Source of the DNA: Dehalococcoides mccartyi
GTDB lineage: Bacteria; Chloroflexota; Dehalococcoidia; Dehalococcoidales; Dehalococcoidaceae
Direction of reading: 5' to 3'
Length of the DNA stretch: 64,000 nt
Assembly (NCBI RefSeq): GCF_001889305.1
Contig: NZ_CP013074.1
Coordinates: forward strand, 248,001-312,000
The translations under genes were made by a program, and so were the position numbers. Positions 8,090-33,283 of this stretch are shown one piece after another. Every line of letters starts with the position of its first letter. Position 1 is the first letter of the stretch. The notes beneath the pieces were generated by a model, which saw nothing but the letters and a program-made list of their open reading frames with translations, searched no databases and was not told the DNA's origin.

Positions 8090-8160
8090 CCTTTTCGGAC
8101 AGGTTGCACCCCGCCATTACCCGGCCGCGACCGGGTACGAACGAAAGAGGAGGTGCTCAC

Positions 8161-8715: not shown

Positions 8716-8758
8716 AAATCTGACTTATCGTAAAAGACTTTGAGGAGGTAATCGAAAA

Positions 8759-8989: not shown

Positions 8990-9577
8990 ATGACCGAAAA
9001 AATTGTAACACAACAATATCCGGGGTATCCCGGCACGCGGCCTCCGAAGGGATGGGTGCCTCCCCTGGGACAATCGCTGACCCTGCTCGGAGTCTATGAC
9101 AACGAGTCGGGCTACTGGATGGGCTTGCCTCTCCAGGTGCTCAGGGAAGCTTTGCTTAATGCTGAGGCTCTTCAAACCGAGGACCGCATCGACGAACGGG
9201 ATAAAATTGAAGTCACTGTGCCGAATGTTTCCGCACAGGATGTGGTAAAAACCACCGAATTTGAGGTACCTTCCGGTGAGGTGTGGTTCCTTAACCGTCT
9301 CAACCTGATCACCGAGGCCGAAGTATCTGGCAACGTCCGTATCTCCAAGTTCCCGAAGGTCAGTGACATCGACAAGAAATACCTGGGTACCGACCAGGCA
9401 GCCGGCGCCGATACTGACTATGACCTTGCTTCTCCAGGGCAACTCGGAGCTGACCTAAGATTAGTAGGTGGGGACAAGATTACCGTTGTAGCCACGGTGA
9501 CAGCGGTCGGCGGCACCACGGCAGATCGCAAGGTCACCCTCAATCCCTATGGTCGCAAAGCGAAGCGGCTGGTATAA
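8990..9577 (+). CDS. Beta-rich hypothetical protein, candidate major structural component
   Basis: A 195-aa protein from ATG 8990 behind AAGGGGG. The N-terminus is Pro/Gly/Tyr-rich (YPGYPGTRPPKGW), followed by an amphipathic helix and, from about residue 65, alternating beta-strand patterns (KIEVTVPNV, TTEFEVPSGEVWFLNRLNLI, DKITVVATVTAVGG). No signal peptide or span. Its place just after the small membrane proteins and its jelly-roll-like strand pattern make it a candidate coat or spike protein. No sequence family is recognised. Confidence 0.6.
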   Translation: MTEKIVTQQYPGYPGTRPPKGWVPPLGQSLTLLGVYDNESGYWMGLPLQVLREALLNAEALQTEDRIDERDKIEVTVPNVSAQDVVKTTEFEVPSGEVWFLNRLNLITEAEVSGNVRISKFPKVSDIDKKYLGTDQAAGADTDYDLASPGQLGADLRLVGGDKITVVATVTAVGGTTADRKVTLNPYGRKAKRLV

Positions 9578-10122: not shown

Positions 10123-10292
10123 ATCAATACCCGCAAGACTATTACTACACACTGGCAGAGTATCAGGCTGCCCAATGGCAGGGTGTCCTGGGTACTTTAA
10201 TGGGAGTCGCCGTGCTGGTAGCCATGGCTGCCTGGGCTTTTTCACTGGTGAAGAAAGCTATCAAGGGTGAGGAGGTGAAGTACCCGCTATGA
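10119..10292 (+). CDS. Small single-span membrane protein
   Basis: A 57-aa frame linked to both neighbours by ATGA overlaps (10119-10122 and 10289-10292). The N-terminus is Tyr/Gln-rich (MNQYPQDYYYTLAEYQAAQW), followed by one hydrophobic span (about residues 24-43) and a basic tail. This is the same layout as the methionine-rich proteins at 8503 and 8759, but with an ordinary Ala/Val/Leu span. The ATGA coupling on both sides is good evidence that it is translated. Confidence 0.65.
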   Translation: MNQYPQDYYYTLAEYQAAQWQGVLGTLMGVAVLVAMAAWAFSLVKKAIKGEEVKYPL

Positions 10293-10843
10293 CCACTTCA
10301 CTTTCAATCTTGAGCGGTGAATTGGGCGATATCTTCTGGGACCTGCCTCCGGTAGTTTCCTATGTAACCGGAATGGATCTCGGATGCAGCATCTATGTGG
10401 CTAATCCAACAGAAGTCGAAAAAGAATACGCCCTGATGGCTCGACTTACCAGGAACGAGACTTTAATCAGCGAAGAAGCGCTGCCGGTATTTGGTTATAC
10501 CTGGTTCAAGGTCGCACCGGGAGAATTTATCAAGCTTAATGGAGCGTTACGCTTTGAAGAAAGTGACGCTAGCCTCGCGGTACTACTTGTCGAAAAGGAA
10601 ACCGAGGAAGTTACCGATTCGGTATCAACATATTTAGCGCAGGTATCGAGCAGTGTTCTCCCACCCTGGTTGGGAGGCTCAACCACAACTACAACAGATT
10701 GGAGTTCACTACTGGGGATGATGTTCCCGTTCCTGATGCTGGGGATGATAGCGGTTGCTTTGAAACCACAATCTGAAAAGAAGGAAAACATCTCTCAGCC
10801 CAAAGAAGAAAGGAAGCTATTACCCGCAGGGAGGCAAAGTTAA
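10289..10843 (+). CDS. Beta-rich protein with C-terminal membrane anchor
   Basis: A 184-aa protein. An extracellular-like beta domain (residues 20-125: IYVANPTEVEKEYALMARLT, then GYTWFKVAPGEFIKL) is followed by a Thr linker (GGSTTTTTDW) and a hydrophobic anchor with methionines (SLLGMMFPFLMLGMIAVAL, about 146-164), then a basic tail. The organisation (soluble domain, anchor, basic end) recurs in the N-terminal part of the 19845 product. No family is recognised. Confidence 0.6.
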   Translation: MTTSLSILSGELGDIFWDLPPVVSYVTGMDLGCSIYVANPTEVEKEYALMARLTRNETLISEEALPVFGYTWFKVAPGEFIKLNGALRFEESDASLAVLLVEKETEEVTDSVSTYLAQVSSSVLPPWLGGSTTTTTDWSSLLGMMFPFLMLGMIAVALKPQSEKKENISQPKEERKLLPAGRQS

Positions 10844-11713: not shown

Positions 11714-12868
11714 ATGAGTCTGTTGTATGGGAAATCGGGAGAGCCGGTTCAAATCGGGCCGTTGATTGGTCGACCCGGGAGTGGCGATATTGCCAAGTCA
11801 GTGCTCAAGACGCTTGAAATCGACTTCTTCCCGGCTGTTGCTCATGAAGAAAATATAAGTGACCCGGGAGAAGCAGCGGCAGAGGAAGAAGGTTTGGTAG
11901 TACCTATACCTCTACTTGAAGAAGACAGTGTTGTAACAGCACCGGATGATCCGGATAAAGTTTATAAACACGATGATGACCTGCTGATAGAGACGGATGT
12001 TACGGCAGACGCATTGGATTCACCTGAAATTGCCGATGAATACACATCCGGGGCAGATAATGCCATTGGAGGCACTTCGACAACCTGGTTGGCGCAGACA
12101 TTTACTACTGATGGAATCGGTTACACCGTACTGGGTGTTCGCGTCATGTTATACCGTACCTCGACCATCGGAACGATAGCCGTTGCGATTAAAGCTACTG
12201 ATGTTAATGGCCATCCGACAGGAGCGGACCTGGTATCGGCAACCATCGATGGCTCAATAACGGACGCCATTCAAACTGAAAATTCGGGTGATTTCTATGA
12301 CTTCATGTTCACTGCGGGCTATGCTCTTACCCCGGCGACAAAGTATGCCATCGTCGTAACCGTATCTTCCGGAACTATTTACTGGAGATATAACTCATCC
12401 GGCTCATTTGCGGGCGGTAACCGGGAACACAGCACCAACTCCGGTGGCAGCTGGACAACTTACACTGCCCACGATTATATGTTTCAAAATATTAAAACCG
12501 AAATGGGAGACGTTGAGCCATTTCCGACAGTACCAGCTGTGGGCGACGGGTTATATGTGGGAAATGCTTCTCAGTTTGATACGGTACGGTTGTGGGTGAA
12601 CCGGCAAGGGCTTGGGACGTTCACCATCACCGCCAAATACTACAACGGCAGTACCTGGATTGCTCTGACGCTTTTAGGTAGCGGAGACCAGATATTCAGT
12701 TATAAACGCACGGGACATCGCTGGCTTTCGTTTATAAGGCCAGCGGACTGGGCAATGTTCACCGTAGACGGGAACAGTCTTTACTGGGTCAAATTTGAAG
12801 TTGCTACCTATTCGAGCATGACCCAGATGCCAAAGATTGGGAATGTCTCGATAGGAGTGTACTCGTGA
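11714..12868 (+). CDS. Large beta-rich protein with two lectin-like modules
   Basis: A 384-aa protein. Residues 1-115 are acidic and look unstructured. Residues about 115-260 form a module (TWLAQTFTTDGIGYTVLGVR, then GHPTGADLVSATIDG, TKYAIVVTVSSGTIYWRYN) of the type common in surface and phage tail proteins. Residues 275-384 form a second module (FDTVRLWVNRQGLGTFTITA, YNGSTWIAL, LYWVKFEVA). It overlaps the next gene by GTGA. Its role is probably exposed binding or adhesion. Confidence 0.6.
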   Translation: MSLLYGKSGEPVQIGPLIGRPGSGDIAKSVLKTLEIDFFPAVAHEENISDPGEAAAEEEGLVVPIPLLEEDSVVTAPDDPDKVYKHDDDLLIETDVTADALDSPEIADEYTSGADNAIGGTSTTWLAQTFTTDGIGYTVLGVRVMLYRTSTIGTIAVAIKATDVNGHPTGADLVSATIDGSITDAIQTENSGDFYDFMFTAGYALTPATKYAIVVTVSSGTIYWRYNSSGSFAGGNREHSTNSGGSWTTYTAHDYMFQNIKTEMGDVEPFPTVPAVGDGLYVGNASQFDTVRLWVNRQGLGTFTITAKYYNGSTWIALTLLGSGDQIFSYKRTGHRWLSFIRPADWAMFTVDGNSLYWVKFEVATYSSMTQMPKIGNVSIGVYS

Positions 12869-13563
12869 TAAGACGATTTGTGGATGAAATTCAGGGTTGG
12901 CTACTGAAGAAATCCAGTTTACAACTGCATGTTCCGCACATGGCGATGTATCTGGATATCGAACTCAAGATGCCTGATGGAAGAATTACGGACCATCGAT
13001 ACCAGCGCAGCAAGAGCTTTGTCAGAAATGCCTATAACCTGTTTTTCCATACTATTGCAGGTTATCCGATGAGTGATGGGACATGGGGAGATGGCTATGT
13101 GAATTTGAAAAACACCAACGGATCCTTAAGTTCCGGTTCCTATCGGGGTTTTTGTTTTTCTACCGATAACAACGGGCAGGGATTTCTTTCACCCGGCAGT
13201 GCGAACGATTTTGGTATCGTCGTTGGTACGGGAACAGGGGCAGAATCTTTTGATGGTTACGCATTAGGCACCAAGATCGCCATTGGCAACGGTGTAGGGC
13301 AATTATACACATTGAGGAGTGAGGATCCTGTCGATTCATATAGTAGCCTTACCAAGAAAAGAACCTTGGTACGCTACTTTAATAATAACTCCGGGGCGAC
13401 TATTAGCCTTGGAGAAATCGGACTGATAGCACGCATTATCACCGGTGGAGATAGCTCTATGTATGCGTTGTTCAGCCGTGACCTCATTACGCCGGTCGTG
13501 GATATTTTGGACAAAGCGCAGTTGAAAGTTACTTACACCATCAGTCTGGTATATCCGTCATAG
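12865..13563 (+). CDS. QRSKSFVRNAYN-family structural protein (paralogue 1)
   Basis: A 232-aa protein from GTG 12865 in the preceding stop. It is homologous to the next gene over its length. Shared parts are an N-terminal amphipathic helix, QRSKSFVRNAYNL, a Gly-rich beta middle with GTGTGAES, a RYFNNNSGA motif, and an ending FSRDLITPV then KAQLKVTYTISLVYPS. The beta-rich, Gly-rich character fits a capsid, fibre or surface subunit. No family is recognised. Confidence 0.6.
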   Translation: MIRRFVDEIQGWLLKKSSLQLHVPHMAMYLDIELKMPDGRITDHRYQRSKSFVRNAYNLFFHTIAGYPMSDGTWGDGYVNLKNTNGSLSSGSYRGFCFSTDNNGQGFLSPGSANDFGIVVGTGTGAESFDGYALGTKIAIGNGVGQLYTLRSEDPVDSYSSLTKKRTLVRYFNNNSGATISLGEIGLIARIITGGDSSMYALFSRDLITPVVDILDKAQLKVTYTISLVYPS

Positions 13564-13572
13564 GGGGAAGGG

Positions 13573-14301
13573 ATGATAGATTATATCGCCGATAAAATAG
13601 CCAGGAAAACAGCTCATAATCTCCATCTGCCATATATCGAAGCTCATCTGGAAGTTGAGATGACGAGAGATGGAAAGAGCCTGTTGCATAGATGCCAGCG
13701 GAGTAAGAGTTTCGTCCGTAACGCCTACAACATATTGTTTTCCCAGGCGGCGGCGGCTGAAGCTGATGATACGACTTTCGGACCGGGCTTAATCAACGCG
13801 AAAGATGTCGCCGGCACTATCGCTAAAAGAGATACGCCAATCAGCTGGATACCCAATGATGTCTCTTCGTTAGGAAGCGGATTTCGGGGAAACGAGGGCA
13901 TATCTAACCACGGGATAGTATTGGGACTGGGAACCGGCGCCGAGAGTATTGAAGATTATTATCTGAGTGGTGCGTTAATTCCTAACGGTAATGGCTCAGG
14001 ACAGATTAACTACAACCCAACTGAGGCTCTCATCAAAGTATGGTCGGCTGGAACCAAGACGCTATCGAATTCCATCAAACGGTATTTCAACAATAACAGC
14101 GGTGCCCAGATCAATGGTTGGGGAGAGATTATTCTAATTGGCAAGATTAACTTCGCCTATTCGTACGGCAGTCTAACCGGCTGGTGGTACGACACTTATA
14201 ACGCAGTTTTTAGCCGGGATTTATTACCAGCACCGGTAAATATACCCGATAAAGCCCAGGTCAAAGTAATGTACACGATTTCGCTGGTTTATCCCTCATA
14301 A
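13573..14301 (+). CDS. QRSKSFVRNAYN-family structural protein (paralogue 2)
   Basis: A 242-aa paralogue of the preceding gene: CQRSKSFVRNAYNI, GLGTGAESIEDY, RYFNNNSGAQ, FSRDLLPAPV and VMYTISLVYPS align in order. The conserved C-terminal strand (TISLVYPS) ends both proteins exactly, which suggests it is buried in an assembly. Ribosome binding site GGGGGAAGGG. Confidence 0.6.
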   Translation: MIDYIADKIARKTAHNLHLPYIEAHLEVEMTRDGKSLLHRCQRSKSFVRNAYNILFSQAAAAEADDTTFGPGLINAKDVAGTIAKRDTPISWIPNDVSSLGSGFRGNEGISNHGIVLGLGTGAESIEDYYLSGALIPNGNGSGQINYNPTEALIKVWSAGTKTLSNSIKRYFNNNSGAQINGWGEIILIGKINFAYSYGSLTGWWYDTYNAVFSRDLLPAPVNIPDKAQVKVMYTISLVYPS

Positions 14302-14364
14302 GGAGTATGAAGTGATAAATTGCATAGATTTACGCTACCGGAAATGGTTAATAGGAGCAAGACG

Positions 14365-15621
14365 ATGAGATATGCGTTGATATCGAAAGGGCTAACCCTT
14401 TCTGATCTTATAGCGGAAGCAAAGAAAGTTGGCGCTCGTGATATTACCAGGACGAAGCTTGTTGAGCAGGTCTTTTGCGAGATGGATGAGAATCAGGCAA
14501 AAGCTCTGGCGAAAATTTCCGGTCTGGTAGTAAAACCTGTTAAAGCATACCTTACCAACCAGGTCGTTTCCGTAGCGCAACCTGTCGAGACCATCTCTGA
14601 TGTATTTTATCTATTGCGTTCCTACTTTTCACCGCCGCTCACTGGTACTGGTTTAACCGTAGCGGTGTTGGACAGTGGTATTCGTAAGACCCACGAATCA
14701 CTTCAGAACAAGGTGATTTACGAGGCTAACTATACTGATTCGCCTTCCGCTAGCGACGTCTTCGGACATGGGACACAGGTAGCTTTCATGATTGCCGGTG
14801 GCATGCATGCGCTGGGATATAAAGCTGGCATCTCACCAGGTGCGACCTTGATGAATATTAAGGTTATCAGTGACGAGGGTATCGGCAACGATGAAGACAT
14901 CGTAATGGGCATCGATCGTGTTTGCGAACTCGCGGAGCAAGCCAGAAGTAAAGGATTTTGGGCGACTGATGAACTCTATCCCAATGTTATCAACCTATCT
15001 CTGGGTGCCGAAGACGACGGCGATCCTGATAATCCGGTAAGAGCTGCTTGCCGCAAAGCCAGTACGGTATATGGATTAGACGTTATCGCTGCTGCAGGTA
15101 ACTCTGGTCCCAATATGACCACGATAATGCTACCAGCTTGCGATCCGGAAGTGATCGCGGTAGGAGCAGTAGAAACTACCGGCGATCTGATCATCTGGGA
15201 AAAATCTTCCCGCGGCCCAACTGTGCAGGGAGAAACCAAGCCTGATTTCGTTATCTGGGGTACTAACCTGGAAATGGCCAGCAACAAGGCTGACGATGAA
15301 TATCTAACCAAATCAGGGACTAGCTTTGCAGCTCCTATGCTGGCTGGACTTACCGGACTTCTCTGGGAAAGCGGGCGGCGGGCTTATGGTGAGAGTTGGT
15401 CGTTCCGCTGGACGGATGCCCGCCAGTATGCTCTCTATTTTTCGACCAAACCATCGGATGCACCCGTTAATAAGGATAATGCTTATGGTTATGGTCTACC
15501 GGCTATGGGAACGATGTTGGGAGAAGTAGCCCAGGTGAGCTCTTCGAACCTGCAAGGAACCGAAATGTTCCCGATGATAATGATGATGGCGCTGATGTCG
15601 GCTCTTACGGGAGGTGTTTAA
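14365..15621 (+). CDS. Subtilisin-family (S8) serine protease with Met-rich C-terminal anchor
   Basis: About 418 aa from ATG 14365, chosen because AGGAG lies at 14353-14357; an in-frame TTG at 14320 lacks a ribosome binding site. Residues 1-70 resemble an I9-type propeptide. The catalytic triad is visible: Asp in VAVLDSGI (about 103), His in GHGTQVA (about 135), oxyanion Asn in AAGNSG (about 246) and Ser in SGTSFAAP (about 320). The last 20 residues (MFPMIMMMALMSALTGG) are a short Met-rich hydrophobic anchor like that of the 8503, 8759 and 16958 products. It probably processes structural proteins or degrades the cell surface. Confidence 0.9.
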   Translation: MRYALISKGLTLSDLIAEAKKVGARDITRTKLVEQVFCEMDENQAKALAKISGLVVKPVKAYLTNQVVSVAQPVETISDVFYLLRSYFSPPLTGTGLTVAVLDSGIRKTHESLQNKVIYEANYTDSPSASDVFGHGTQVAFMIAGGMHALGYKAGISPGATLMNIKVISDEGIGNDEDIVMGIDRVCELAEQARSKGFWATDELYPNVINLSLGAEDDGDPDNPVRAACRKASTVYGLDVIAAAGNSGPNMTTIMLPACDPEVIAVGAVETTGDLIIWEKSSRGPTVQGETKPDFVIWGTNLEMASNKADDEYLTKSGTSFAAPMLAGLTGLLWESGRRAYGESWSFRWTDARQYALYFSTKPSDAPVNKDNAYGYGLPAMGTMLGEVAQVSSSNLQGTEMFPMIMMMALMSALTGGV

Positions 15622-16957: not shown

Positions 16958-17428
16958 ATGACCCTGGATATAGTCCTGGCGCCGATGGCGCTGGAACAGA
17001 AAACATTTAACGTTGGGGATACTGTCAGGGTGACCGTCTCCTTTAAATATATCGTTGGTGTAAATAAGACGGTAAGACTGATGGCAGGTCCTTACTATAC
17101 CAATCTATTCGGTAAGCACATGGTTGATCAGTGTGTGGGGGACGCCGATGTAGCGTTGGTTCCTGCCTCGACTCCAGCAGAACAAACGGCTACAGTCGAC
17201 TTCATCCTTATACCGAAAGCGACCGGCGGTATTGATGATGGCACTTACGGCTTAAGGGTTTGGATCGAGGATACTAATGCTTTGGCTGAGCAGGATAACG
17301 TGGTTATAGTAACCGGCAATCCCAGTAGCAGCGATATGTTCAGCTCCATCATGCCCATGATAATGATGCTCATGATGATGGGAATGATCATGCCGATGAC
17401 CCAGCAGATGGGTGAGGGAGCCGAATAA
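16958..17428 (+). CDS. Ig-like beta protein with Met-rich C-terminal anchor
   Basis: A 156-aa protein. Residues 10-120 are an Ig-like beta domain (VRVTVSFKY, ATVDFILIPKA, GTYGLRVWIED). The end is a Met-rich membrane span (MFSSIMPMIMMLMMMGMIMP) nearly identical in pattern to the products at 8503 and 8759, then a short acidic tail. Topology is therefore a soluble domain anchored by its C-terminus. It shares TAATG with the recombinase gene downstream. Confidence 0.65.
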   Translation: MTLDIVLAPMALEQKTFNVGDTVRVTVSFKYIVGVNKTVRLMAGPYYTNLFGKHMVDQCVGDADVALVPASTPAEQTATVDFILIPKATGGIDDGTYGLRVWIEDTNALAEQDNVVIVTGNPSSSDMFSSIMPMIMMLMMMGMIMPMTQQMGEGAE

Positions 17429-18102
17429 TGGTGAAAGCCTACCTCGAAATACAGGAGATTGAACAGCTCGAACAGGCTGCAGAATATTTGCGGGATAAGC
17501 TGCTAATTCGCCTTTTATTTCATTTGGGTTGTCGGGTATCCGAAGCGCTGGGAATTAAAACGAGCGATATTGATTTTAAGCAGGGTTTAGTTACAATCCA
17601 GTATCTTAAGCAACGAATCAAGCTTTCCTGCCCGGAGTGTAATGCCAGGCTAGGAAAAGAGCACAAATATTGCCCGGTATGCGGGAAAAAGGTAGACAAG
17701 GCCTTATCTGATGAAAAAGAGCACCGTAAATTCCGTACTCTGCCCTTGGATGAAGATACATTGAAGATGCTGAAGGAGTATATAGGTCGGGGAGGAGCTA
17801 ATCACCAAAATAAATTGATATTTGCTTTAACTCGTCACCGAGCTTGGCAGATTATCCGGGATTGTGCTGAAAGAGCTCAACTCCCGCACCTGGTAAATTC
17901 TGAAACCGGTAAGGAGCACAATGTAAGTCCTCACCGCCTTCGAGATGCCTTCGCCGTCCATGCGGTCAAACTGGATGATTCAGGTGATGGTATCAGGCTG
18001 CTTCAAGAACACTTGGGACACCAGAGCATTGTTACGACGATGAAATACCGGAAGGTATCCGGTGAAGAGCAGCGTGAGTGGTATGAAAAATTATGGAATT
18101 GA
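17428..18102 (+). CDS. Minimal tyrosine recombinase with inserted zinc ribbon
   Basis: A 224-aa catalytic domain of the XerC/lambda-integrase family. Visible residues: Arg36 in GCRVSEAL, His169-x-x-Arg172 in HRLRDAF, His198 in LGHQS and Tyr207 in MKYRKV. A four-Cys zinc ribbon (C68, C71, C82, C85: CPEC...CPVC) is inserted between the beta strands after box I. The usual N-terminal SAM-like DNA-binding domain is absent. The gene is embedded in the structural operon, overlapping its neighbour, rather than next to the regulatory switch. It may act in integration, dimer resolution or DNA inversion. Confidence 0.85.
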   Translation: MVKAYLEIQEIEQLEQAAEYLRDKLLIRLLFHLGCRVSEALGIKTSDIDFKQGLVTIQYLKQRIKLSCPECNARLGKEHKYCPVCGKKVDKALSDEKEHRKFRTLPLDEDTLKMLKEYIGRGGANHQNKLIFALTRHRAWQIIRDCAERAQLPHLVNSETGKEHNVSPHRLRDAFAVHAVKLDDSGDGIRLLQEHLGHQSIVTTMKYRKVSGEEQREWYEKLWN

Positions 18103-19244: not shown

Positions 19245-19550
19245 ATGGCATGGAAGAAATTGATACTGCAAAAATCAAATCAATCAGGACGATTTGAGGT
19301 AATCGGCCAATGTAATCGTTGTGGCCAGTGCTGCATTTGCTGGATTTATAACCAACCTGATCAGCCGGCAGAGGTATTACCAAAAAAAGGTTGGTGCCCT
19401 GATTTGGATCAAGAGTCGGGACGCTGTCGGATATGGGAAAACAGACCTGAAGGGTGCCGTAACTTTCCAACTCTGAGAGATTTCGACTTGGGAGCGGTAC
19501 CCGACAAGTGTGGATTCAGGCTGGTATCAGGAGGTAATGAAAATGGGTAA
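19245..19550 (+). CDS. Cysteine-cluster (YkgJ-like) protein with MAWKK N-terminus
   Basis: A 101-aa protein. Residues 24-90 contain the YkgJ-type cysteine pattern (CNRCGQCC...C, then GWCPDLDQESGRCRIWENRP, CRNFP), a family thought to bind zinc or iron-sulfur clusters. The first 9 residues (MAWKKLILQ) match the MTWKK and MSWKK starts of the two neighbouring fibre-like proteins, which normal YkgJ proteins lack. It overlaps the next gene by 8 nt. It may modify or mature its neighbours. Confidence 0.65.
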   Translation: MAWKKLILQKSNQSGRFEVIGQCNRCGQCCICWIYNQPDQPAEVLPKKGWCPDLDQESGRCRIWENRPEGCRNFPTLRDFDLGAVPDKCGFRLVSGGNENG

Positions 19551-19848
19551 ATATGCGAATCACGAAGAATTTGGGATCAACGCTCCGATAAACTACCGGG
19601 AAGATTCTACTAGCGAGTCTTTCCTTAAAGGTATGTCGGTAATTGCTCCATCGGGTATGAAGCCGAAGGTCTTGCGAGGTAAAAAGTTCGAGGAGAAAAC
19701 CGATTTCAAGGCTTCCGCACGGTGGCACAAGAATTTCGATTTAGCGATGTTCGGTGGCTCAGATATCGGGACGTCAAATTATGAATCTAATCAAATGAAT
19801 TTAGAAGGAAAAATCAATGGCGTAAAAAGAATACCCGGGAGGCAATGA
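19543..19848 (+). CDS. MGKYA-family protein (paralogue 2)
   Basis: A 101-aa protein from ATG 19543 behind GGAGGT. It is homologous to the 70-aa product of 8161 over the first 75 residues (MGKYA, EF, PINYRE, GM then IAPSGMKPK, DLAMF), with about 27 extra C-terminal residues. ATGA overlap joins it to the DUF192-ArdC gene. No known family is recognised. Confidence 0.65.
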   Translation: MGKYANHEEFGINAPINYREDSTSESFLKGMSVIAPSGMKPKVLRGKKFEEKTDFKASARWHKNFDLAMFGGSDIGTSNYESNQMNLEGKINGVKRIPGRQ

Positions 19849-21497
19849 TGGCAGGACAGGTCAAAATAACGATTGGAGATAAAGAGTGGTTAGCTTCCCT
19901 ATCCAGCACATACTGGGAGTTGGTGCAAGGACTTGGCGGTATTCCCGAGATGGAGGCCGGTACGGGAATGCTATTCGATTTGGGTTTTACTCAGGATATC
20001 ACCGTAACCACTGAGCCGATGCTTTTCCCGCTGGATATTGCCTTCTTATCCGAGGACATGGTAATTACCGAGATCTATCGCAATGTTCAGCCGGGATATC
20101 TTGTACATGCAACGATACCTCCTCGTTATTTCATTGAGGTTAATGCCGGTGAGCTTGAAGGTATAGAAGAAGGCGCCCAAGTATCGTTTGAATTACTGAC
20201 CCTTGTAAGCACCGTAGAAGCCTCTGATTGGATGACTCCGATGATTTCCCTTATGGGTTTTACTCTAATGGGTGTTTTCGCAGTAAGCCTGGTACGTGAC
20301 TTGGTGAAAGAACAACCGGAGGAGGTCAGGCATCTACGGTTGGTTAAGTCCAGTCGATCTGATGCTGGCTTGCTAGATCCCCGACGTTTTCCAAAAAGGA
20401 CCGAATCACTGAACAGGCTCGGAGCTTATGATGTGGTTCATGTACACGATGATGGCGATCTAACTGTCCTCAGCCGCGGCAAGCTGTATGTAGTAACTAC
20501 CGGAGGTGAAGTCTTCAAGCAGGAGCCCGATTCTTATGACAGCCCAAACCAGGTAGCTGGAGCATGTGAGAGGATTTCGCCACAATATTACGGTCTATTG
20601 AGGTGGGTTGGTGTTCCGTTGCCGGACTACAGCTTCGCGATTGAATCCGAAGTCAAAGAACGCAAGATTGACGATGTTTTGAAACGGCTCAAGGAAGGGG
20701 TCGATGGTATCCAGCAAAGCGACAACTTTAGGACATTCTTGCTTACCATGTCCAAGTTTCACGATTACAGCATCGGTAACTTGATACTGATCATGCTCCA
20801 GAACCCTGACGCTACCCGGGTCGCCGGTTTCAGTACTTGGAAAGGTTTATATCGTTGGGTTAAAAAAGGCGAAAAGGGAATTGCTATTCTGGCTCCGTGT
20901 ATGCCTCCTAAGAAAAAGATACTTGAACCTTCTGAAACTGAGACTGCACAGGATGAAGAGGAAACGGAGATCCGACCGATCTATTTCAAAGTGGTCCACG
21001 TTTTTGATGTTAGTCAAACAGAAGGGAAACCTCTTCCCGAATTTGAAGTTCCACCTCTTACCGGTGAAGCAAATGAAAAATTATTTGAGCAAGTTATGCA
21101 TCTGGCAGAATCACAAGGCCTTGAGGTCAGTTTTGAATCAAAGCCGGATCAGGATCCGGATATCAAGGGTTACTACACGGGCAAAAGTATCTGGGTTCGA
21201 CCGGAAGAATCACGAGCTCAGCAATTAAAAACACTGTTGCATGAAGTTGCTCATTATTACTCTGAGGGGGTATTTCGCATACCACGGAGTGATGCCGAAA
21301 CCATTGCCGAAAGCGTGGCATTTACTATCGGCGCTCATTATGGTTTTGACACCGGTGCCCGCTCATTCCCCTATGTAGCAATCTGGTCCAAGGATAAGAA
21401 AGTTCTTGAAGCTAACTTGGCTGCTATACGCAAAGTAGCAGACAAGATATTCGATGGTCTTGAGCAAACCGCCAGAAAATTGATAGAGGTAGCCTAA
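19845..21497 (+). CDS. DUF192 - membrane span - ArdC-like - zincin metallopeptidase fusion
   Basis: A 550-aa fusion. Residues about 40-118 resemble DUF192 (GMLFDLG, PLDIAFLSEDMVI, then RYFIEVNAGEL and GIEEGAQVSF). A hydrophobic span follows (about 131-151). Residues about 265-390 match the ArdC N-terminal DNA-binding domain (SKFHDYSIGNLILIM, FSTWKGLYRWVKKGEKGIAI). Residues 400-550 are a zincin with HEVAH at 466-470 and a downstream Glu in AETIAESVAF. ArdC proteins protect incoming DNA from restriction. Membrane anchoring and the DUF192 part are unusual and suggest delivery at entry or packaging in the particle. Confidence 0.8.
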   Translation: MMAGQVKITIGDKEWLASLSSTYWELVQGLGGIPEMEAGTGMLFDLGFTQDITVTTEPMLFPLDIAFLSEDMVITEIYRNVQPGYLVHATIPPRYFIEVNAGELEGIEEGAQVSFELLTLVSTVEASDWMTPMISLMGFTLMGVFAVSLVRDLVKEQPEEVRHLRLVKSSRSDAGLLDPRRFPKRTESLNRLGAYDVVHVHDDGDLTVLSRGKLYVVTTGGEVFKQEPDSYDSPNQVAGACERISPQYYGLLRWVGVPLPDYSFAIESEVKERKIDDVLKRLKEGVDGIQQSDNFRTFLLTMSKFHDYSIGNLILIMLQNPDATRVAGFSTWKGLYRWVKKGEKGIAILAPCMPPKKKILEPSETETAQDEEETEIRPIYFKVVHVFDVSQTEGKPLPEFEVPPLTGEANEKLFEQVMHLAESQGLEVSFESKPDQDPDIKGYYTGKSIWVRPEESRAQQLKTLLHEVAHYYSEGVFRIPRSDAETIAESVAFTIGAHYGFDTGARSFPYVAIWSKDKKVLEANLAAIRKVADKIFDGLEQTARKLIEVA

Positions 21498-21500
21498 CTC

Positions 21501-22034
21501 ATGGTAATCCGACTAGCACCTACAAGAGGTGGATTCCTCCGTCCATTTGGCTGCGGGTGGTTTATTCGGGAATACCTTATGGGTAAAGGCCCTGAAGGTT
21601 CAAGGAAAATAGATCCTGAGCGAGGTGCTCCCCAGGCTGACATCAACTTCGAATACAAGGAGGCTTTAGCACGTGCTACAGCCAGGGAGCGAGCTGAGCG
21701 AATCATAAGTAACATGGTGGTCAAAGGTGCTGATGTTTCCGAAGAAGAAGCCGAGAAAATTTACCAGCGTGAGTTGAAACGAGTCTCCCGCAAGTTCACG
21801 CATATGCGGTATCATTCTTTTCTCATGTATTTTGGGGTACTAAAAAGGCTGGGATGGGTTGAAGTCACTCATAAAACTGAAGCTTCAACAATCCAAGATA
21901 ACTATTCCCCGGCTCCGGAGCGGACTTACTACCGACTTACGAAAACTGGCATAAAAGCCGGTGATGATCTCTGGTCTAATCCACTCTTCACATTGTATCC
22001 CGAGGTCGGCCCCAGCCACACGAAGAGAGCTTAA
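21501..22034 (+). CDS. Hypothetical protein, last gene of the operon
   Basis: A 177-aa protein. The C-terminal half looks like a winged helix (SFLMYFGVLKRLGWVEVTHK, then RTYYRLTKTG), preceded by a charged helical region (ARATARERAERI). The N-terminus (LAPTRGGFLRPFGCGWFIREYL) is compact. It begins 4 nt after the ArdC fusion. It could be a DNA-binding accessory of that protein. No terminator is visible in the 55 bp before the convergent TIR gene. Confidence 0.55.
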   Translation: MVIRLAPTRGGFLRPFGCGWFIREYLMGKGPEGSRKIDPERGAPQADINFEYKEALARATARERAERIISNMVVKGADVSEEEAEKIYQRELKRVSRKFTHMRYHSFLMYFGVLKRLGWVEVTHKTEASTIQDNYSPAPERTYYRLTKTGIKAGDDLWSNPLFTLYPEVGPSHTKRA

Positions 22035-22089: not shown

Positions 22090-25000
22090 TCATGAGTTGT
22101 ATTGCTCATAAATATCGCGAAGAAATTCTATGTTCCGTCCACCATAAATATTACTTATCTTGTTGGCGGCATCAACTTGTCCTGACTCATAAAGCTTGGT
22201 CACTGTAGCCCTGATAATTTTTTGATCAAATACTGGGGTTGAGCTATCAAGCATCGCGATGTATACCTCACCTACTTGAGACGGACTCGTGTCACACAAT
22301 CTCAAAAGGTATTCAATGAAGAAGGAGCTGTTGAAATTCTTATCTGCGAATTTTGCTGAAAATATAATCATTTCAAATGTATCGGGATCAAGAACTTTGA
22401 TATAACAAGTCAGCCTGCAAAGATCCGATGCGAGCTTTTTTTCACTTTCCGTTAGGGTATTTTTGCCCTTTAGAATATCGTAGATATATCTCCAAAATTT
22501 TAAAATCCTAGCCGTTTGTCTCTTAACTATATCCTGCTGGTCGGTTTGAATTTCTTGAGTATCCTTATCAACGAGGTGCTCTCTTTGAATCCAGAAAAAC
22601 CAGATGATTTCAGTTAGACTTTCAGTGTTCCAAGGAGCTAAACAAGCATGGAATGGGCTTGCTTGATCGTCGATTTCCTCCTTTTCCAGCAAGTACCCAA
22701 TACTGAGGTGCTGTATGAGATGCTTTCTCGCTTCTTTGTCACGAAAGGTAGTTTCAACTGCCTTTTGGTAGTGTTCGTTGCTTCTCAATAGGTCATAAAT
22801 AGTGGAATACACTTTTCCATGCAAAAGATACCCTTCCATGGTTGCTTGCCAATGCTCTTCTATGTTTTTCGGTAATATTAGGTTAATGTTGCTTTCAACC
22901 CATTGCTTGTCTAAGTAGTAGAGATTTGGCAGATATCTTCCAAGTGTCAGTGAGAATCTCGGATCAGGTTCAATGGTTCGGTCAAGGCGTTTGGTAAACT
23001 CATCCTTAACTTTTCCTGACCACTTTGTAGTAGTGCTTTGATTACTCAACCTTGCAACACGTAAAGAGTAGTTAATTAAGGCTGTTAGAACGCGCCCTTT
23101 AGCTGAATTAAGCACTTCAAAAAGTAGATCATCAGGTCTTTCTAACTTAGATTCTACCTTAATCAACAAGAATAGGAGTAACTCCTCAGCCTGTGGCAAT
23201 AGATTCTGAGGGAAAGCCCTGCTATCATCTCTCGTTCCATCGGTTATGATGTCTGCAATCTCCGAAACTATTATGTCTCGGAGATTGCTTTCTCCGTTCT
23301 GTTCGGATTTTACCCAGAATTCATTGGGCATGACTATCTGGGTACAGAAGGAAATTATCTTCTCCCAATCAAGGTCAGTTTTTTCTTCCCATGCCTTTCG
23401 GAAGCCACCAATAATTCGGTATTGGTAGTCGATAGGCACCTGGGTAAACGGATGGAGATCAACGTAGAACTTTTCAGCGTGAGTCCTAACAGCTTCGGAA
23501 AGAGCTCCCTGTAATCCTTCTCTCGAAGGGCCTTTCCATGTTATTCCCGATTGTTTATAAGAAGAAAGATAATTCGCGATATCGGAGTTATTCTTTTGGA
23601 CTAGAATGTCTACCGATATCGGACTGAGGTCAGGCCCCCATCCCATCTCCATCCAAGAGCTGAAATCCGGATGATCAGGTTCAATGTTGGTCAGAGTCTT
23701 ATACTTTTCATATAATTCTTGTGCCTTTGGATAACCCGATGGGGCAACAGCGGAGAGCCATCCCTGTTTCCAGTATGCTTGCCGTTTTCCCTCTACATCT
23801 TCTTTGTCCTCTTTCTCCGGACCTGATTCAATCCAATCGATAACCCTATCCTTTTCCTCTTGCGGGAAAGCGCTAAAATTCTGCTTCAGAAAGACATATA
23901 CCTCATGCTTAATGTTGTAGTCATTAAACATGCGACGATTAGCCAACAATTTGTATAATGGAGAACATACCTGCCAGTTCATCGAAATAACAGAAAAAGC
24001 AAGGCGCCGGAATATCGGATGCTCTCTCTTAAATAATCCAGCTAGCATATTAAGAGCAGATTCTTTATCTCTGGTCACTGAAGCATTCAGCAAATCTCGA
24101 GTGCCTCTGACTATAACGTTTGGAAGCCTTCCTTTATGAAGATCATCCTGAGAGTGATCTTCAATAGCAGCAACCTCAAATATATTGAATTCTGATGGCT
24201 TGCGTTCAATTATCTCCTGTATTCGGTTTATAAGTATTTCGGCAGCCTCCAAAGGACAGGCACTTGCTAAGCTTCCGATATTCCGTTCGAAAAGGTCATT
24301 AAGCCAATAAACATCAATAATCGAATCAGGCGAGGAATCTCCGACTTCATTAACCCACTTCACGGAAGTAGCGATATTAAAAAGCTTAAGTGATTTTTCT
24401 ATTTGACCACGTCTTAGGATGGCAGGTAATAATTTGCTGCCGATTTCTGGTCCGATAAGAGTACTTTTCCAGCGGGATTCCAAATATGTTGCGACCAGAT
24501 CAACATCTTCGATAGTAAGGAACTGATCAGGGAGGTTTGCCATGATTTTGATGAATACCCAGTCCGTAATGTAATTATCATTCCTCTTACCGTTTGGATC
24601 ACGATACTTTGAAACAGAACGAACAATATCCATTAAAGCTTCACCGAAAGCGGAGTTTTCATTTTCCGTGATCTGAGTAGAGCACCATTCCAGATAATCG
24701 AGAACGCTCCAGCGAGGCATAGTATAGCTTCCAGGTTGATTTTCAACCTCAACAGGCCATGGATTACGGTCAAAGAAGCCGTAAAGCTTGAGAAAAGCCA
24801 GCCAATTCAGCTGTTTCAACCTTGAAAAAAAATAGTGCTGATAACCATCTTTTAAAAGGAAGACATCAATCATGATTTTAATTTCAGAAGGGGACGGATT
24901 TTCGCGTGCGATAATTTTGTCTATATGCTCAACGTCATGGTAAAAGAATTCATCCTTCTGGAATATATTGAGTTGAATCAATTTGTCTTGGATTGCTTTG

Positions 25001-25404
25001 AGTAGATCCTGTGTACCCAATTCCCATCGGTGTTTATCTGAAAAATCGGTGCAAATTAGACCATCTACTTTGTCTGGAGTCTTAAATTCGATCTTGATTC
25101 CAGCAGACAGATCGCTGAAGTTCAAGTCAAGCTTGATTGGGAAGATATTCGTATTAAGACTACCTTGAGCTGCAGCCAATTCGTTTCGAAGGAATTCACT
25201 GCCTTGCCATTGTTTTGAAAAGATAGGGATGAACACGACCGATCGCTTTGCCTCGTCAATCATATTCTGAGCTTTGTCGCCAGTCTTGTTTCTCTTGTGG
25301 TCAACGAAGATATCAAGACCAAGCTTTGCTCTTTCCAGCTTTTCGTACAAGTAGTCTACGAAAGCATCATCTTCTTCAGCATGAGAAATCATCGTTTTTA
25401 TCAT
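22090..25404 (-). CDS. Large TIR-domain protein, probable defence effector
   Basis: An 1104-aa protein. Residues 1-135 form a bacterial TIR domain: MISHAEEDDAFVDYLYEKLE, then IFVDHKRNKTGD, VVFIPIFSKQW and SEFLRNELAAAQ, with Glu75 at the position of the catalytic glutamate of TIR NADases. The remaining 950 residues are helical, with no motif I recognise, resembling HEAT/TPR-like repeat or sensor scaffolds. There is no STAND P-loop. TIR proteins deplete NAD on phage sensing. The gene stands alone and faces the opposite way to its neighbours, which suggests separate acquisition. Confidence 0.75.
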   Translation of the reverse strand: MIKTMISHAEEDDAFVDYLYEKLERAKLGLDIFVDHKRNKTGDKAQNMIDEAKRSVVFIPIFSKQWQGSEFLRNELAAAQGSLNTNIFPIKLDLNFSDLSAGIKIEFKTPDKVDGLICTDFSDKHRWELGTQDLLKAIQDKLIQLNIFQKDEFFYHDVEHIDKIIARENPSPSEIKIMIDVFLLKDGYQHYFFSRLKQLNWLAFLKLYGFFDRNPWPVEVENQPGSYTMPRWSVLDYLEWCSTQITENENSAFGEALMDIVRSVSKYRDPNGKRNDNYITDWVFIKIMANLPDQFLTIEDVDLVATYLESRWKSTLIGPEIGSKLLPAILRRGQIEKSLKLFNIATSVKWVNEVGDSSPDSIIDVYWLNDLFERNIGSLASACPLEAAEILINRIQEIIERKPSEFNIFEVAAIEDHSQDDLHKGRLPNVIVRGTRDLLNASVTRDKESALNMLAGLFKREHPIFRRLAFSVISMNWQVCSPLYKLLANRRMFNDYNIKHEVYVFLKQNFSAFPQEEKDRVIDWIESGPEKEDKEDVEGKRQAYWKQGWLSAVAPSGYPKAQELYEKYKTLTNIEPDHPDFSSWMEMGWGPDLSPISVDILVQKNNSDIANYLSSYKQSGITWKGPSREGLQGALSEAVRTHAEKFYVDLHPFTQVPIDYQYRIIGGFRKAWEEKTDLDWEKIISFCTQIVMPNEFWVKSEQNGESNLRDIIVSEIADIITDGTRDDSRAFPQNLLPQAEELLLFLLIKVESKLERPDDLLFEVLNSAKGRVLTALINYSLRVARLSNQSTTTKWSGKVKDEFTKRLDRTIEPDPRFSLTLGRYLPNLYYLDKQWVESNINLILPKNIEEHWQATMEGYLLHGKVYSTIYDLLRSNEHYQKAVETTFRDKEARKHLIQHLSIGYLLEKEEIDDQASPFHACLAPWNTESLTEIIWFFWIQREHLVDKDTQEIQTDQQDIVKRQTARILKFWRYIYDILKGKNTLTESEKKLASDLCRLTCYIKVLDPDTFEMIIFSAKFADKNFNSSFFIEYLLRLCDTSPSQVGEVYIAMLDSSTPVFDQKIIRATVTKLYESGQVDAANKISNIYGGRNIEFLRDIYEQYNS

Positions 25405-26346: not shown

Positions 26347-26430
26347 AGCTTACTACTAGATGAAGCCGATAGCCTTGCCCACTGTCGGATAGTCAAAAGG
26401 GGGTGTTCCAATAGAACAATTGAATATTGA

Positions 26431-26446
26431 GGGCAAGCGTTCAGGT
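26431..26446 (-). repeat. 16-bp repeat, right copy of an inverted pair
   Basis: GGGCAAGCGTTCAGGT, the exact reverse complement of 25634-25649. It lies in the leader of the clamp gene. Confidence 0.6.
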
Positions 26447-26518
26447 GAGGGCTTTTGTGCTCACAAGGCGATACTGGTAAACGCTCTATCAAGAGCACTA
26501 GCCGAAAGGGTAGTGCTT

Positions 26519-27679
26519 ATGGACTTCACGATAGGGCGTAAAGGCTTTCTTACCTACATTAAGTCATTAGGCGGGAGTAATGTCGTTAAAGTCGTTCCCT
26601 CGTCTAACGGCAATGCCAGCGGGTTGCGGGTTGCCGATAAAAGACTGAAGGTGGTCTGCGGAGCTAATACCAGTTACCTTGACGATATGGCTTGGGTAGG
26701 TGATAAAACACCTCTAACACTCTGCGATGTCAGGGTAAGCCCATCAAATACTGTCAAGCCTAACCTCGGAGCACTGGAGCTATCGGAAGCACTGTCAAGA
26801 GTAGTGCCGTTCACCGCTAAAGAGGATAACAGACCAGTTTTACAGTGTGTCCTCTTTAAGGTGGCAGACGGCAAGCTCACGATGGTAAGCGCCGATGGTT
26901 ACAGGCTGGCGATGGTGAAGTTGGACTTTGACGGTGATGAGGGGCAAGTCCTGATAAATCGGGATGAGCTAAGGGGGGTAATTAGTGCCCTGCGAAGGGC
27001 ATACAGGGTGAGGGTGGGCTTTGAGAAAAGCGGGGAAAGCCTTGACGGAATGAGCCTTGTTCTGGACACGGAGCTAATCCGCTATAAATGGCGGGGGGCT
27101 GATGGGAACTTTCCCGAATACGAGAAGCTGATACCCGCCGACTTCAACACCTTTGTTAGCTTTGACACTAACGAGGCAATCAGGGCGGTAAGCTCACTCA
27201 AAGTCCTGTCCGATAGCAAGGCATACCCGATAGACCTCACAATCGGCAACGGCAAGCTCACAATGTCCAGTCCCGATGATAAGGGAATGGCAGAGATACC
27301 CGCCGATACACAGGGCGATGGCAAGATAAGACTGGATGGCAGTTACCTTGCTGACGCCTTAAGAGCTTGTGGCGGGATGGTAGAGCTAAAGCTGGTCAAT
27401 AGCCAGTCTCCAATGCTTTTTACCAGTCCCGACTATGAGCTTGTGGTAATGCCGATGTTTGCTGGTGAAAGTCAGAAGCCGAAAGGTGAGGCACAGACCG
27501 CCGAGCCAGTCAAGGCAGAAACCGAAACCACCGAGGATACAGAGCCAACCGAGCCAGAAGCCGAAATGGTAAGCGAAGCCGAGAAAGCCAATGCTGTAGC
27601 CGAAGCCGAAGCAATTACCAAAGCCGAGAAGCCGAAGCGGAAGCGAAGCAAGGCAAGAGAACCAGTCGCCGTAGCATAA
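26519..27679 (+). CDS. Diverged DNA polymerase III beta sliding clamp-like protein
   Basis: About 386 aa from ATG 26519 (GAAAGGG 8 nt upstream), which begins with MDFTI like other clamps. The frame is open upstream to TTG 26420, and AAAAGGGGG at 26395-26403 is well spaced only for a non-standard ATA at 26411. Middle and last domains are clear (FTAKEDNRPVLQCVLFKVAD, ADGYRLAMVKL, FPEYEKLIP, ending SPDYELVVMPM). The first domain is short. A Glu/Thr/Ala-rich tail then a basic KPKRKRSKARE end is added. It could load the element's replisome or couple to the sigma-like protein. Confidence 0.75.
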   Translation: MDFTIGRKGFLTYIKSLGGSNVVKVVPSSNGNASGLRVADKRLKVVCGANTSYLDDMAWVGDKTPLTLCDVRVSPSNTVKPNLGALELSEALSRVVPFTAKEDNRPVLQCVLFKVADGKLTMVSADGYRLAMVKLDFDGDEGQVLINRDELRGVISALRRAYRVRVGFEKSGESLDGMSLVLDTELIRYKWRGADGNFPEYEKLIPADFNTFVSFDTNEAIRAVSSLKVLSDSKAYPIDLTIGNGKLTMSSPDDKGMAEIPADTQGDGKIRLDGSYLADALRACGGMVELKLVNSQSPMLFTSPDYELVVMPMFAGESQKPKGEAQTAEPVKAETETTEDTEPTEPEAEMVSEAEKANAVAEAEAITKAEKPKRKRSKAREPVAVA

Positions 27680-29577: not shown

Positions 29578-29645
29578 CTTTCCTAATGAATGGATTAAAG
29601 GGTATAATGAGAACGAAATTAAGTAACAAAAGGCAGCAACATAAA

Positions 29646-30437
29646 ATGAGCGAATATTTTAAGACTGAAAGCATATCAATTTATAAAGACGATGTCTTGA
29701 CCACTAAAGAAATTCCGGGAAATACTATAGACCTCATCGTCACTTCACCACCATACAACGTCGACATAAAATATAATTCCCACGACGATAAGATGTCTTA
29801 CGAAATATATTTGGAATTCTCTGAAAAATGGTTGGGCAGATGCTATGAGTTTGTAAAGGAAGATGGAAGGTTGTGTCTGAATATTCCCCTGGACAAGAAT
29901 AAGGGCGGTCAGCAGAGTGTGTATGCTGATCTCACTACGATTGCCAAAAAGGTAGGATGGAAATACCATACTACTGTCGTTTGGAATGAGCAGAATATCT
30001 CAAGGCGCACCGCTTGGGGCTCATTCCGTAGTGCTTCAGCGCCTTTTATCATTGCACCTGTAGAAATGATAGTAATTTTATATAAGGAACGCTGGAAGAA
30101 GACCAGCGGAAGCTGTGAATCCGATATTACAAAAGAGGATTTCATGGCATGGACAAACGGGGTTTGGACTTTTGGTGGCGAAAGCAAGAAACGGATAGGG
30201 CACCCAGCACCATTTCCTCTAGAACTTCCCATGAGGTGCATTAAATTATTCAGTTTCGTGGGTGATGTAGTCCTTGACCCATTTGCTGGAAGCGGAAGCA
30301 CTTTAATTGCTAGTGCTCTGGCTGGAAGAAAAGGAATCGGTATCGAAATTGACGAAGGTTATTGCAAACTCGCACATCACAGGCTTTTAACAGAAGCAAA
30401 ACTTAATCAATACAATTTTGAGTCAATATTAACCTAG
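29646..30437 (+). CDS. DNA methyltransferase, beta class (N4-cytosine/N6-adenine)
   Basis: About 263 aa from ATG 29646. This start lies downstream of TATAAT at 29603-29608, which looks like a -10 box; earlier in-frame ATGs at 29586 and 29607 are less likely. Motif IV TSPPYN (near residue 34) precedes motif I DPFAGSGST (near 220), the beta order typical of N4mC and some N6mA enzymes. The putative target-recognition region lies between. It faces a convergent group of nuclease-like genes, so it is probably the protective half of a restriction system. Confidence 0.85.
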   Translation: MSEYFKTESISIYKDDVLTTKEIPGNTIDLIVTSPPYNVDIKYNSHDDKMSYEIYLEFSEKWLGRCYEFVKEDGRLCLNIPLDKNKGGQQSVYADLTTIAKKVGWKYHTTVVWNEQNISRRTAWGSFRSASAPFIIAPVEMIVILYKERWKKTSGSCESDITKEDFMAWTNGVWTFGGESKKRIGHPAPFPLELPMRCIKLFSFVGDVVLDPFAGSGSTLIASALAGRKGIGIEIDEGYCKLAHHRLLTEAKLNQYNFESILT

Positions 30438-30473
30438 TCTTAGCTTAATCGTCTGCGAAATACATTTAAACCG

Positions 30474-30505
30474 ATGCCGGGGCGGCGAATTCGCCGCCCC
30501 GGCAT
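30474..30505. terminator. 32-bp perfect GC-rich palindrome with T-run, bidirectional terminator
   Basis: ATGCCGGGGCGGCGAA (30474-30489) is followed directly by its reverse complement (30490-30505) and then TTTTTT. It sits between the convergent methyltransferase and EVE-like nuclease genes, the right place for a bidirectional terminator. The stem is much more GC-rich than its surroundings. Confidence 0.8.
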
Positions 30506-30555
30506 TTTTTATTGTTAGAGATAACAATGTTAATCTTGTCGCTATATCATGGAAG

Positions 30556-32070
30556 CTACCAATCGTAGACCAATATCGGTCTACGCACAGATAGGTCGTT
30601 GTAACTAGCAATATAGTTGAGCGTCAACGGTTCATACCCGCGGGAGATTATTACTGGGTTTATTGCTCTGAAATTGTAAGAAGTGATAGGAGCTACTTCC
30701 TCGTACAATATTTTCATAAAATCGTGAAACGTTGAAGTAGAAAAAACCTGATCCCATACAAAAGCATAGCATAGCGAGATCACCCGACTAGTCAACGTAT
30801 TCTTCTCTTCGATAATAAAGCTGCTATTGGTTGGTTGTTTGATAAGGTTACGAGAGACATAGCCATTATTGGGACAGCATGGGAGTCCGTAAGTAACATT
30901 TGCGATTATGTCTTTTATCGGCGATGGAGTTCCCCAAGGTATTGGTGTTATGGAAGGATTCTGAGGCAGTGATACAGTACCAGGTAACTCAGCAAACAGA
31001 GCATCTTTGGATTGACCAGCAGACTTGTATTCTATCAAGATTACTGGGTCGTAGGGTGAAAAAGTATTATGCATGTTCCTGAATTTTACCGTATCAGGTG
31101 CGAATTTAGCTGCAAGAGCACACGCTGAGATCTTATCTTTGCCAGGATGGAAAATGGCTCTTTGTCTGAATAGATCTATATACAACATAAGTTGCCGTAG
31201 TTCCCCCAGCTTGAAATTCGAATTCTTTGCTTCAATGATGTAATAGTGGCGGTCGTCTTCATTTATTGTCGATACTACAAGGACATCCATCAATTTTCGC
31301 GTTGTTGGAGCAACGAATGTTTCATTCATATAATCGACGTAATTTGGGAATATTGCTGTAAGAGAAGGATGCAAATCCGCCAATTTATCCATCAAGAGGG
31401 CTTTTACTGCATTCTCATATCTTCCTACATTACCAACCTGTGTCCTCATGGGAATAATATTTGCAGGAACAGGTGATATAACACTCGATGAAACTTTGTG
31501 ACCGCTTAATCTGAATTCACGTAGGAAAATGTTCAGGATAGTCTGTGCATCGGAGAAGGAGATTTTTCTTACAGCCCTTCTTTCAATATTGCGTTCGTTT
31601 TCAAGAGTAGCAAGAGACCAAATTTGGTGAGCTTCTATCGCTTGATAAATGTCTGAGACTCTTACTGACATGTCGGCGTCGCAAATAGCCTCGTAGCCAG
31701 GGTAAGGTTTGAATAAAAACCTAAAAGGAAAGACTTCTTTTTGGTTCTTCCATACGGGAGAGTTATCATAAAATGGATTTGAGCTAGGTGTATATGGTCC
31801 GTGTAAGCCAGATATCCCAAATTCCTTACCGATCACGTGAAAGAATATGAGATCGCCAGGGCGAACTGCAATCAAGTCTCTTATTACAGACAATTGGTCC
31901 TGAGGACGTAATTGGGTTGTGGAATCCGGCTTGTTCTTTCTATTACCGTATATACCCTTTACCCTAGATATTGGCCAGTCGGTATCTGATACTTGGCAAA
32001 CAAAACCTCCCATATCATTCTCCCAATTAATCTGGTCTTTGTATCTGGGAATCGATGCCGTATTGGTCAT
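30556..32070 (-). CDS. EVE-like domain plus PD-(D/E)XK nuclease-like protein
   Basis: About 504 aa from ATG 32070. Residues about 5-150 resemble an EVE/PUA-like modified-base reader (VRPGDLIFFHVIGKEFGISG, then WKNQKEVFPFRFLF). Residues about 255-330 contain a PD-(D/E)XK-like core (LMDVLVVSTINEDD, then YYIIEAKNSNFKLGELRQLM, with D and E-x-K). The last 120 residues are unassigned. EVE-nuclease fusions restrict DNA with modified bases, or act as specificity and cleavage subunits beside a methyltransferase. It overlaps the upstream HNH gene by about 44 nt. Confidence 0.6.
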   Translation of the reverse strand: MTNTASIPRYKDQINWENDMGGFVCQVSDTDWPISRVKGIYGNRKNKPDSTTQLRPQDQLSVIRDLIAVRPGDLIFFHVIGKEFGISGLHGPYTPSSNPFYDNSPVWKNQKEVFPFRFLFKPYPGYEAICDADMSVRVSDIYQAIEAHQIWSLATLENERNIERRAVRKISFSDAQTILNIFLREFRLSGHKVSSSVISPVPANIIPMRTQVGNVGRYENAVKALLMDKLADLHPSLTAIFPNYVDYMNETFVAPTTRKLMDVLVVSTINEDDRHYYIIEAKNSNFKLGELRQLMLYIDLFRQRAIFHPGKDKISACALAAKFAPDTVKFRNMHNTFSPYDPVILIEYKSAGQSKDALFAELPGTVSLPQNPSITPIPWGTPSPIKDIIANVTYGLPCCPNNGYVSRNLIKQPTNSSFIIEEKNTLTSRVISLCYAFVWDQVFSTSTFHDFMKILYEEVAPITSYNFRAINPVIISRGYEPLTLNYIASYNDLSVRRPILVYDW

Positions 32071-33155: not shown

Positions 33156-33283
33156 TGAGTAGAGCATACAACAAGTGGGGACCAAATTCAAAAGTTTTCT
33201 GCGTTGTCCTTTAACATCCTTACTGATATTATGTCTATAGTTGACGCGACAAAGGTTTCGTAGGGTCAAATAGAGAAGACAGA

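Follow-up and report, generated by a model that had tools for sequence, protein, structure and literature searches.

Why would a protein of a kind that guards invading DNA be tied to a membrane? An ArdC-type protein normally protects invading DNA against bacterial restriction enzymes, and the known ArdC proteins are, to our knowledge, soluble and tied to conjugation. In the window analysed here, a stretch of 64,000 nucleotides of contig NZ_CP013074.1 from Dehalococcoides mccartyi, a member of a genus used in chlorinated-solvent clean-up, an ArdC-like sequence shares one open reading frame with a DUF192 domain and a hydrophobic segment. We considered what this protein is, what kind of element carries it and what its anchor might be for. 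All coordinates are window positions unless a contig is named.

Architecture of the fusion protein

The open reading frame at 19845–21497 (+) is a real gene with a product of 549 or 550 residues. Because all aligned relatives open with MAGQ or its equivalent, translation more probably begins at the second ATG (19848–21497, 549 aa) than at the alternative, 19845. A single chain holds DUF192, one membrane helix, a linker, ArdC-N and a zincin with an intact HEVAH motif; the preliminary description had proposed that these parts lie in one 550-aa chain, and Pfam, the fold matches and the relatives all bear this out. The DUF192 domain (residues 19–115; 19899–20189, +) was recognised by Pfam (PF02643; E = 3.6e-16, 59.5 bits against a cut-off of 27) and by PDB profile matches (3pjy, 5.4e-12; 3m7a, 1.4e-5). 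It has the same fold as the DUF192 proteins 3pjy of Sinorhizobium (Foldseek E = 2.7e-7; Z 15.6, rmsd 2.1 over 115 residues) and 3m7a, which is Saro_0823 (Z 14.3), and the DUF192 part has a net charge of −6 to −16. The linker between the span and ArdC-N (20298–20636, +) is variable: an extra beta segment is confined to the window copy and L031/L052, and in some relatives the site is occupied by Cys pairs or by a C2H2-like motif.

The ArdC N-terminal domain, of the ssDNA-binding type (20649–21005, +), was matched by Pfam at residues 269–387 (E = 2.7e-14, 53.8 bits against a cut-off of 22.6), and the zincin metallopeptidase domain (21075–21485, +) gave a sub-threshold match to Peptidase_M78. The best fold match of the C-terminal half is R388 ArdC, 6i89 (Foldseek E = 7.7e-8, probability 1.00). 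Against 6sna the Z score was 11.0 but the rmsd 10.8, so either the two-domain arrangement or a poorly predicted N-domain differs from that structure. Two AF2 models were available (mean pLDDT 66 and 61), in which the zincin is modelled confidently but ArdC-N is not; for the latter, therefore, the sequence match outweighs the fold match. The DUF192 and ArdC folds, both conjectured in the preliminary description, were thus matched independently, to 3pjy and to R388 ArdC. Within the zincin, the HEVAH motif occupies residues 466–470 (21240–21254), with E485 as a further ligand and Y510. All of 36 ArdC relatives share H466, H470, E485 and Y510, E467 is present in 35 of them, and all five residues align with R388 ArdC. 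The sole exception is a fused relative (L053/L139; L053:10001–11524) that reads HAVAH, either through natural loss of the catalytic Glu or through a sequence error in the MAG. By its sequence and predicted fold, the fusion protein belongs to the ArdC family.

R388 ArdC (6i89, 6sna) shares ArdC-N, the zincin, the metal ligands and the Tyr with the fusion protein; however, it is a 297-aa protein that has neither a membrane span nor DUF192 and acts in conjugation, whereas no conjugation genes were recognised in the element described below. It binds ssDNA and counters HsdRMS, and its protease activity is dispensable for anti-restriction (PMC7213743). By analogy, the fusion protein would also bind ssDNA and oppose restriction. 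R388 agrees with the earlier statement that ArdC is normally soluble and has its effect in the recipient (PMC7213743); the ArdC of pSa is itself transferred as a protein (PMC5512222).

In phage records, matches were confined to the ArdC region, with no DUF192 fusion; in plasmid records they likewise fell in the ArdC region alone, none covering 80% of the query; and none of the papers listed by a literature search links ArdC to DUF192.

The membrane span and its orientation

The segment at about residues 130–151 (20232–20297, +) is a helix predicted by AF2 (129–150 of 549) with low pLDDT. Hydropathy alone was rejected as proof of a span, since that of the single sequence was equalled by 382 of 2000 shuffles, and for this reason the argument is drawn from conservation: this is the strongest hydrophobic segment, always near 130–150, in each of the 12 aligned fusions. 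Around it, the same 12 sequences have no Lys or Arg in the preceding 20 residues and one to seven in the following 30; in several relatives the residues after the span show a weak charge bias.

This charge pattern, together with the negative net charge of the DUF192 part and with extracytoplasmic DUF192 proteins elsewhere, favours a topology in which DUF192 would lie on the outer face and ArdC on the cytoplasmic side. Saro_0823 (structure 3m7a) was found in the periplasm with its signal peptide removed (PMC3608174), and the DUF192 protein HVO_0504 is an N-glycoprotein (PMC8241124). Both are exported by signal peptides, whereas the fusion protein has none, a hydrophobic N-terminus being found neither in it nor in any aligned relative; unlike both, it continues from DUF192 into a membrane span and an enzyme-like cargo. 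The lack of a signal peptide that would carry an N-terminal domain of folded size outward speaks against this topology.

Distribution and cargo exchange

Proteins with DUF192 followed by a span occur in 14 of 156 genomes of the order Dehalococcoidales, at 21 loci, 16 fused to ArdC-zincin and 5 not, and the fusion is kept between genera. The preliminary description had called for a search for other DUF192-ArdC fusions, and because these 16 Dehalococcoidales loci retain it, the join is not a matter of chance. The same genome has a second copy of the fusion gene near 767 kb with syntenic flanks, and genomes of a sister genus have up to three copies. The slot of the DUF192-span gene is constant: upstream lies a tyrosine recombinase with a zinc-ribbon insert (17428–18102, +) and downstream, where the contig reaches, the gene at 21501–22034 (+; 74–91% identity across copies, no family match) or its relatives. 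This short recombinase sits mid-element, besides the serine integrase at the left end. A small conserved protein (19534–19848, +) overlaps the start of the fusion gene and resembles that at 8104–8373; the element thus has two similar small MGKYA...EEF proteins at separate places.

What follows the span differs between loci. In L151 there is no cargo, the 161-aa protein consisting of DUF192 and the span and nothing more; in L048 and L152 the cargo is a short tail ending in the tag DSPExLxxTIDDIGYR. In L046 it is an undefined domain, and the tag closes its apparent continuation at the start of L040, the join across the two contigs being inferred from their overlapping, near-identical ends. This L046/L040 cargo had no Pfam match; from its Cys/His pattern we would guess at a papain-like peptidase. 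Most unfused ArdC relatives with a known N-terminus have a comparable span, and in the unfused ArdC-zincin proteins of L040, L058, L059, L060, L062 and L162 a hydrophobic span of their own lies N-terminal to ArdC. Because the locus always has a DUF192-membrane protein with a varying C-terminus, and because unfused ArdC relatives mostly keep a span, the DUF192-span part reads as a fixed anchor with exchangeable cargo.

The tag, in the longer form DSPExLxxTIDDIGYR...D.AF, is C-terminal on otherwise unlike proteins of related elements (L040:1045, L048:3418, L063:588, L058:6909, L119:11948, L152 and L162). It is present in three viral contigs too, and a 40-kb viral contig encodes an ArdC-zincin protein of 644 aa that closes with it. 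Adjoining the tag-bearing genes is a conserved protein of about 500 aa (L040:1122–2693, L048:6755–7843, L152, L162:3671–5170) with a C-terminal HELAHH motif where complete and a weak DUF6782 match.

More distant relatives combine this ArdC-zincin with ddrB-ParB in one protein (1493 aa) and with PBECR3 in another (732 aa), domains that have been linked to proteins delivered with phage DNA (PMC5512222). The polyvalent proteins described there (Iyer et al. 2017) have ArdC-N and MPTase as hub domains, as does the fusion protein, which with several effector-type domains encoded on a mobile element has the composition of a polyvalent protein, to judge from its domain matches. It differs in its N-terminal header, which is DUF192 plus span in the fusion protein and ArdC-N in the polyvalent proteins; the word 'transmembrane' is absent from the main text of that paper.

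The element and its gene content

The fusion gene lies in an element of about 37.6 kb, from about −2142 to about 35515, seen as an insertion relative to two sister genomes. Its left junction coincides with the 3′ end of tRNA-Val, shortly before the window begins; the right junction, GCCCACCAT (35515–35523, +), repeats this tRNA-Val 3′ end, and genome G001 has the uninserted, joined site. At the left end a large serine recombinase is followed by HTH genes, a Gp3-like recombination directionality factor (1273–2253, +; Pfam E = 5.9e-50), a DUF3854 primase-type replication protein (2303–4498, +) and DnaJ and AAA proteins. The element also encodes repressors and its own sliding clamp (26420–27679, +).

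From 8.5 to 17.4 kb extends a block of membrane and beta-rich proteins that is conserved across the copies compared. Its most conserved member (74–84%) is a 195-aa protein (8990–9577, +) with no known relatives; neither this nor the 242-aa protein had a match in named phages. Relatives of the proteins at 12865–13563 (+) and 13573–14301 (+) are found in four viral contigs (L124–L127) that encode tape-measure, baseplate or HK97 head proteins, and because of this adjacency to tailed-phage genes the two are probably two copies of an adsorption protein of the tail-tip type. A particle is therefore supported, as is the earlier placing of the fusion gene among putative structural proteins. The block further encodes two small proteins with Met-rich membrane spans after TD(W/M)TS (8503–8956, +), a protein with an N-terminal domain, a DW motif, a C-terminal span and a basic tail (10289–10843, +), a subtilase with a Met-rich hydrophobic C-terminus (14320–15621, +; Pfam E = 7.4e-36) and a protein with an N-terminal domain and a Met-rich C-terminal span (16958–17428, +).

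Met-rich C-terminal spans after a D(W/M)(T/S)S-like motif recur at 8503–8956, 10289–10843 and 16958–17428 and at the C-terminus of 14320–15621. Met makes up 22% of residues in the block spans but 4% in the host proteins on either side (Fisher p = 2e-10, no more than indicative in that residues within a span are not independent). Several block proteins, and the fusion protein too, have a D(W/M) motif ahead of the span. The combination looks like a shared sorting or coat signal.

Two further regions have a defence character. An inserted gene at 22090–25404 (−), which follows the ArdC operon immediately and is missing in the other copies compared, encodes an N-terminal TIR and then a DSR1-like body (PADLOC Dsr1 E = 3.3e-215, residues 147–1103), apparently a defence protein in which TIR replaces the sirtuin part. 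The right end (29586–35427) has an N6/N4 methyltransferase, an HNH nuclease and a weak PD-T7-1/PD-T7-5 match, and is probably restriction-modification and defence cargo.

Among the element proteins that were scanned, no PHROG of a large terminase, portal, HK97 capsid or tape measure was found, nor did we recognise any known type of capsid or packaging enzyme in the element; the sole terminase match of the genome is at 1.02 Mb, outside it. An ordinary tailed prophage was thus rejected, head, packaging and tape-measure families being absent from the scanned proteins. Relaxase PF03432 had no match in the whole genome, and the VirB4-like family had only a sub-threshold match, at the FtsK gene at 453 kb; a conjugative element was rejected for want of a relaxase or an above-threshold VirB4-like gene in the genome. 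In its recognised gene content, then, the element belongs to neither recognisable conjugative elements nor recognisable tailed phages. It may be a satellite of a tailed prophage to which the 1.02-Mb terminase points.

The element resembles the ssrA-specific Dehalococcoides islands (PMC3146451) in that a large serine recombinase has inserted it at the 3′ end of an RNA gene, but it differs from them in its tRNA-Val site, in its replication, clamp, excision-factor and particle-type genes and in its other gene content. As far as the siphovirus-like Dehalococcoides prophage (Waller et al. 2012) is portrayed in PMC3462421 and PMC10667658, it is likewise temperate and of the same genus, whereas in the element we recognised neither a tail family nor a terminase family.

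What might the anchored protein do?

We tentatively propose, at a probability of roughly 0.4, that a temperate virus-like element uses the fusion protein as a polyvalent-type effector anchored in the membrane, with DUF192 outside and ArdC inside, to protect entering DNA. DUF192 and the span would form a fixed module that places the protein in the membrane with DUF192 on the outer face, so that the C-terminal cargo, ArdC-N and zincin, would point into the cytoplasm of the cell that makes it. Should particles take up this membrane, the cargo would come to lie inside, beside the packaged DNA; on entry it would face the cytoplasm of the new cell, where ArdC-N would coat the incoming DNA and block restriction. 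Without a particle, the same protection could take place at the inner face of the membrane. In either case the arrangement suggests that the protein with which the element shields its DNA is held in a membrane or in the coat of a particle and is not free in the cell. For this proposal speak the fusion kept between genera, the cargo exchange, the spans of unfused relatives, the charge pattern, the adsorption-type neighbours, the kinship with delivered effectors and the activity of R388 ArdC. Against it count the absence of a recognised capsid, terminase or packaging enzyme, the missing signal peptide, the weak charge bias in several relatives and the low confidence of the ArdC-N model. The earlier idea of an anti-restriction protein carried in a particle or at the entry site is thus supported in part, by the fusion, the conserved anchor and the setting among probable particle proteins.

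The zincin might instead be the working part, an anchored protease that matures the particle or membrane proteins of the element or cleaves itself to free ArdC-N. The conservation of HExxH, E485 and Y510, the place of the gene among membrane-protein genes and the self-processing proposed for such peptidases of polyvalent proteins (PMC5512222) speak for this; yet the fused relative with HAVAH lacks the catalytic Glu, R388 ArdC needs no protease for anti-restriction (PMC7213743) and the subtilase of the same block could do the maturation, and we consider the protease reading unlikely. A shade less probable still is that the protein never travels, staying in the lysogen membrane and protecting element DNA or excluding other elements. 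Such a role would suit an element with other defence genes, namely the DSR1-like TIR protein and the methyltransferase with HNH, but the fusion gene has a fixed place beside the particle-type block, outside the variable defence region, and its product is akin to delivered polyvalent proteins.

Each of these readings takes the span to be real. Were the segment a buried or linker helix, the protein would be soluble, as its moderate hydropathy, within the range of the shuffles, and its low pLDDT might allow. The preliminary description had placed a span at about 131–151 and named a buried helix as the contrary case; the segment turns out to lie outside the folded domains, at the same place and uncharged in all relatives, the protein of L151 stops just past it and most unfused ArdC relatives with a known N-terminus have a comparable one, which makes a soluble protein quite improbable.

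Implications

The fusion alone is of modest novelty; more surprising is that, in an unrecognised virus-like element, cargo is exchanged behind a membrane module in a conserved manner. The mobile element that the fusion gene marks is widespread, a genome having up to three copies of the gene, and the DUF192-span part is a concrete candidate for sorting effectors to a membrane or coat. A conserved, anchored ArdC in an element with no recognisable conjugation genes points to another route by which anti-restriction proteins are carried. We would go further only as speculation, and with considerable doubt: Dehalococcoidia might harbour temperate viruses of a family not yet described, tailless and possibly enveloped, with DUF192-span proteins in the coat that carry exchangeable effectors, ArdC-zincin being one such cargo. 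If this were true, an anti-restriction protein would be delivered while anchored in the viral membrane.
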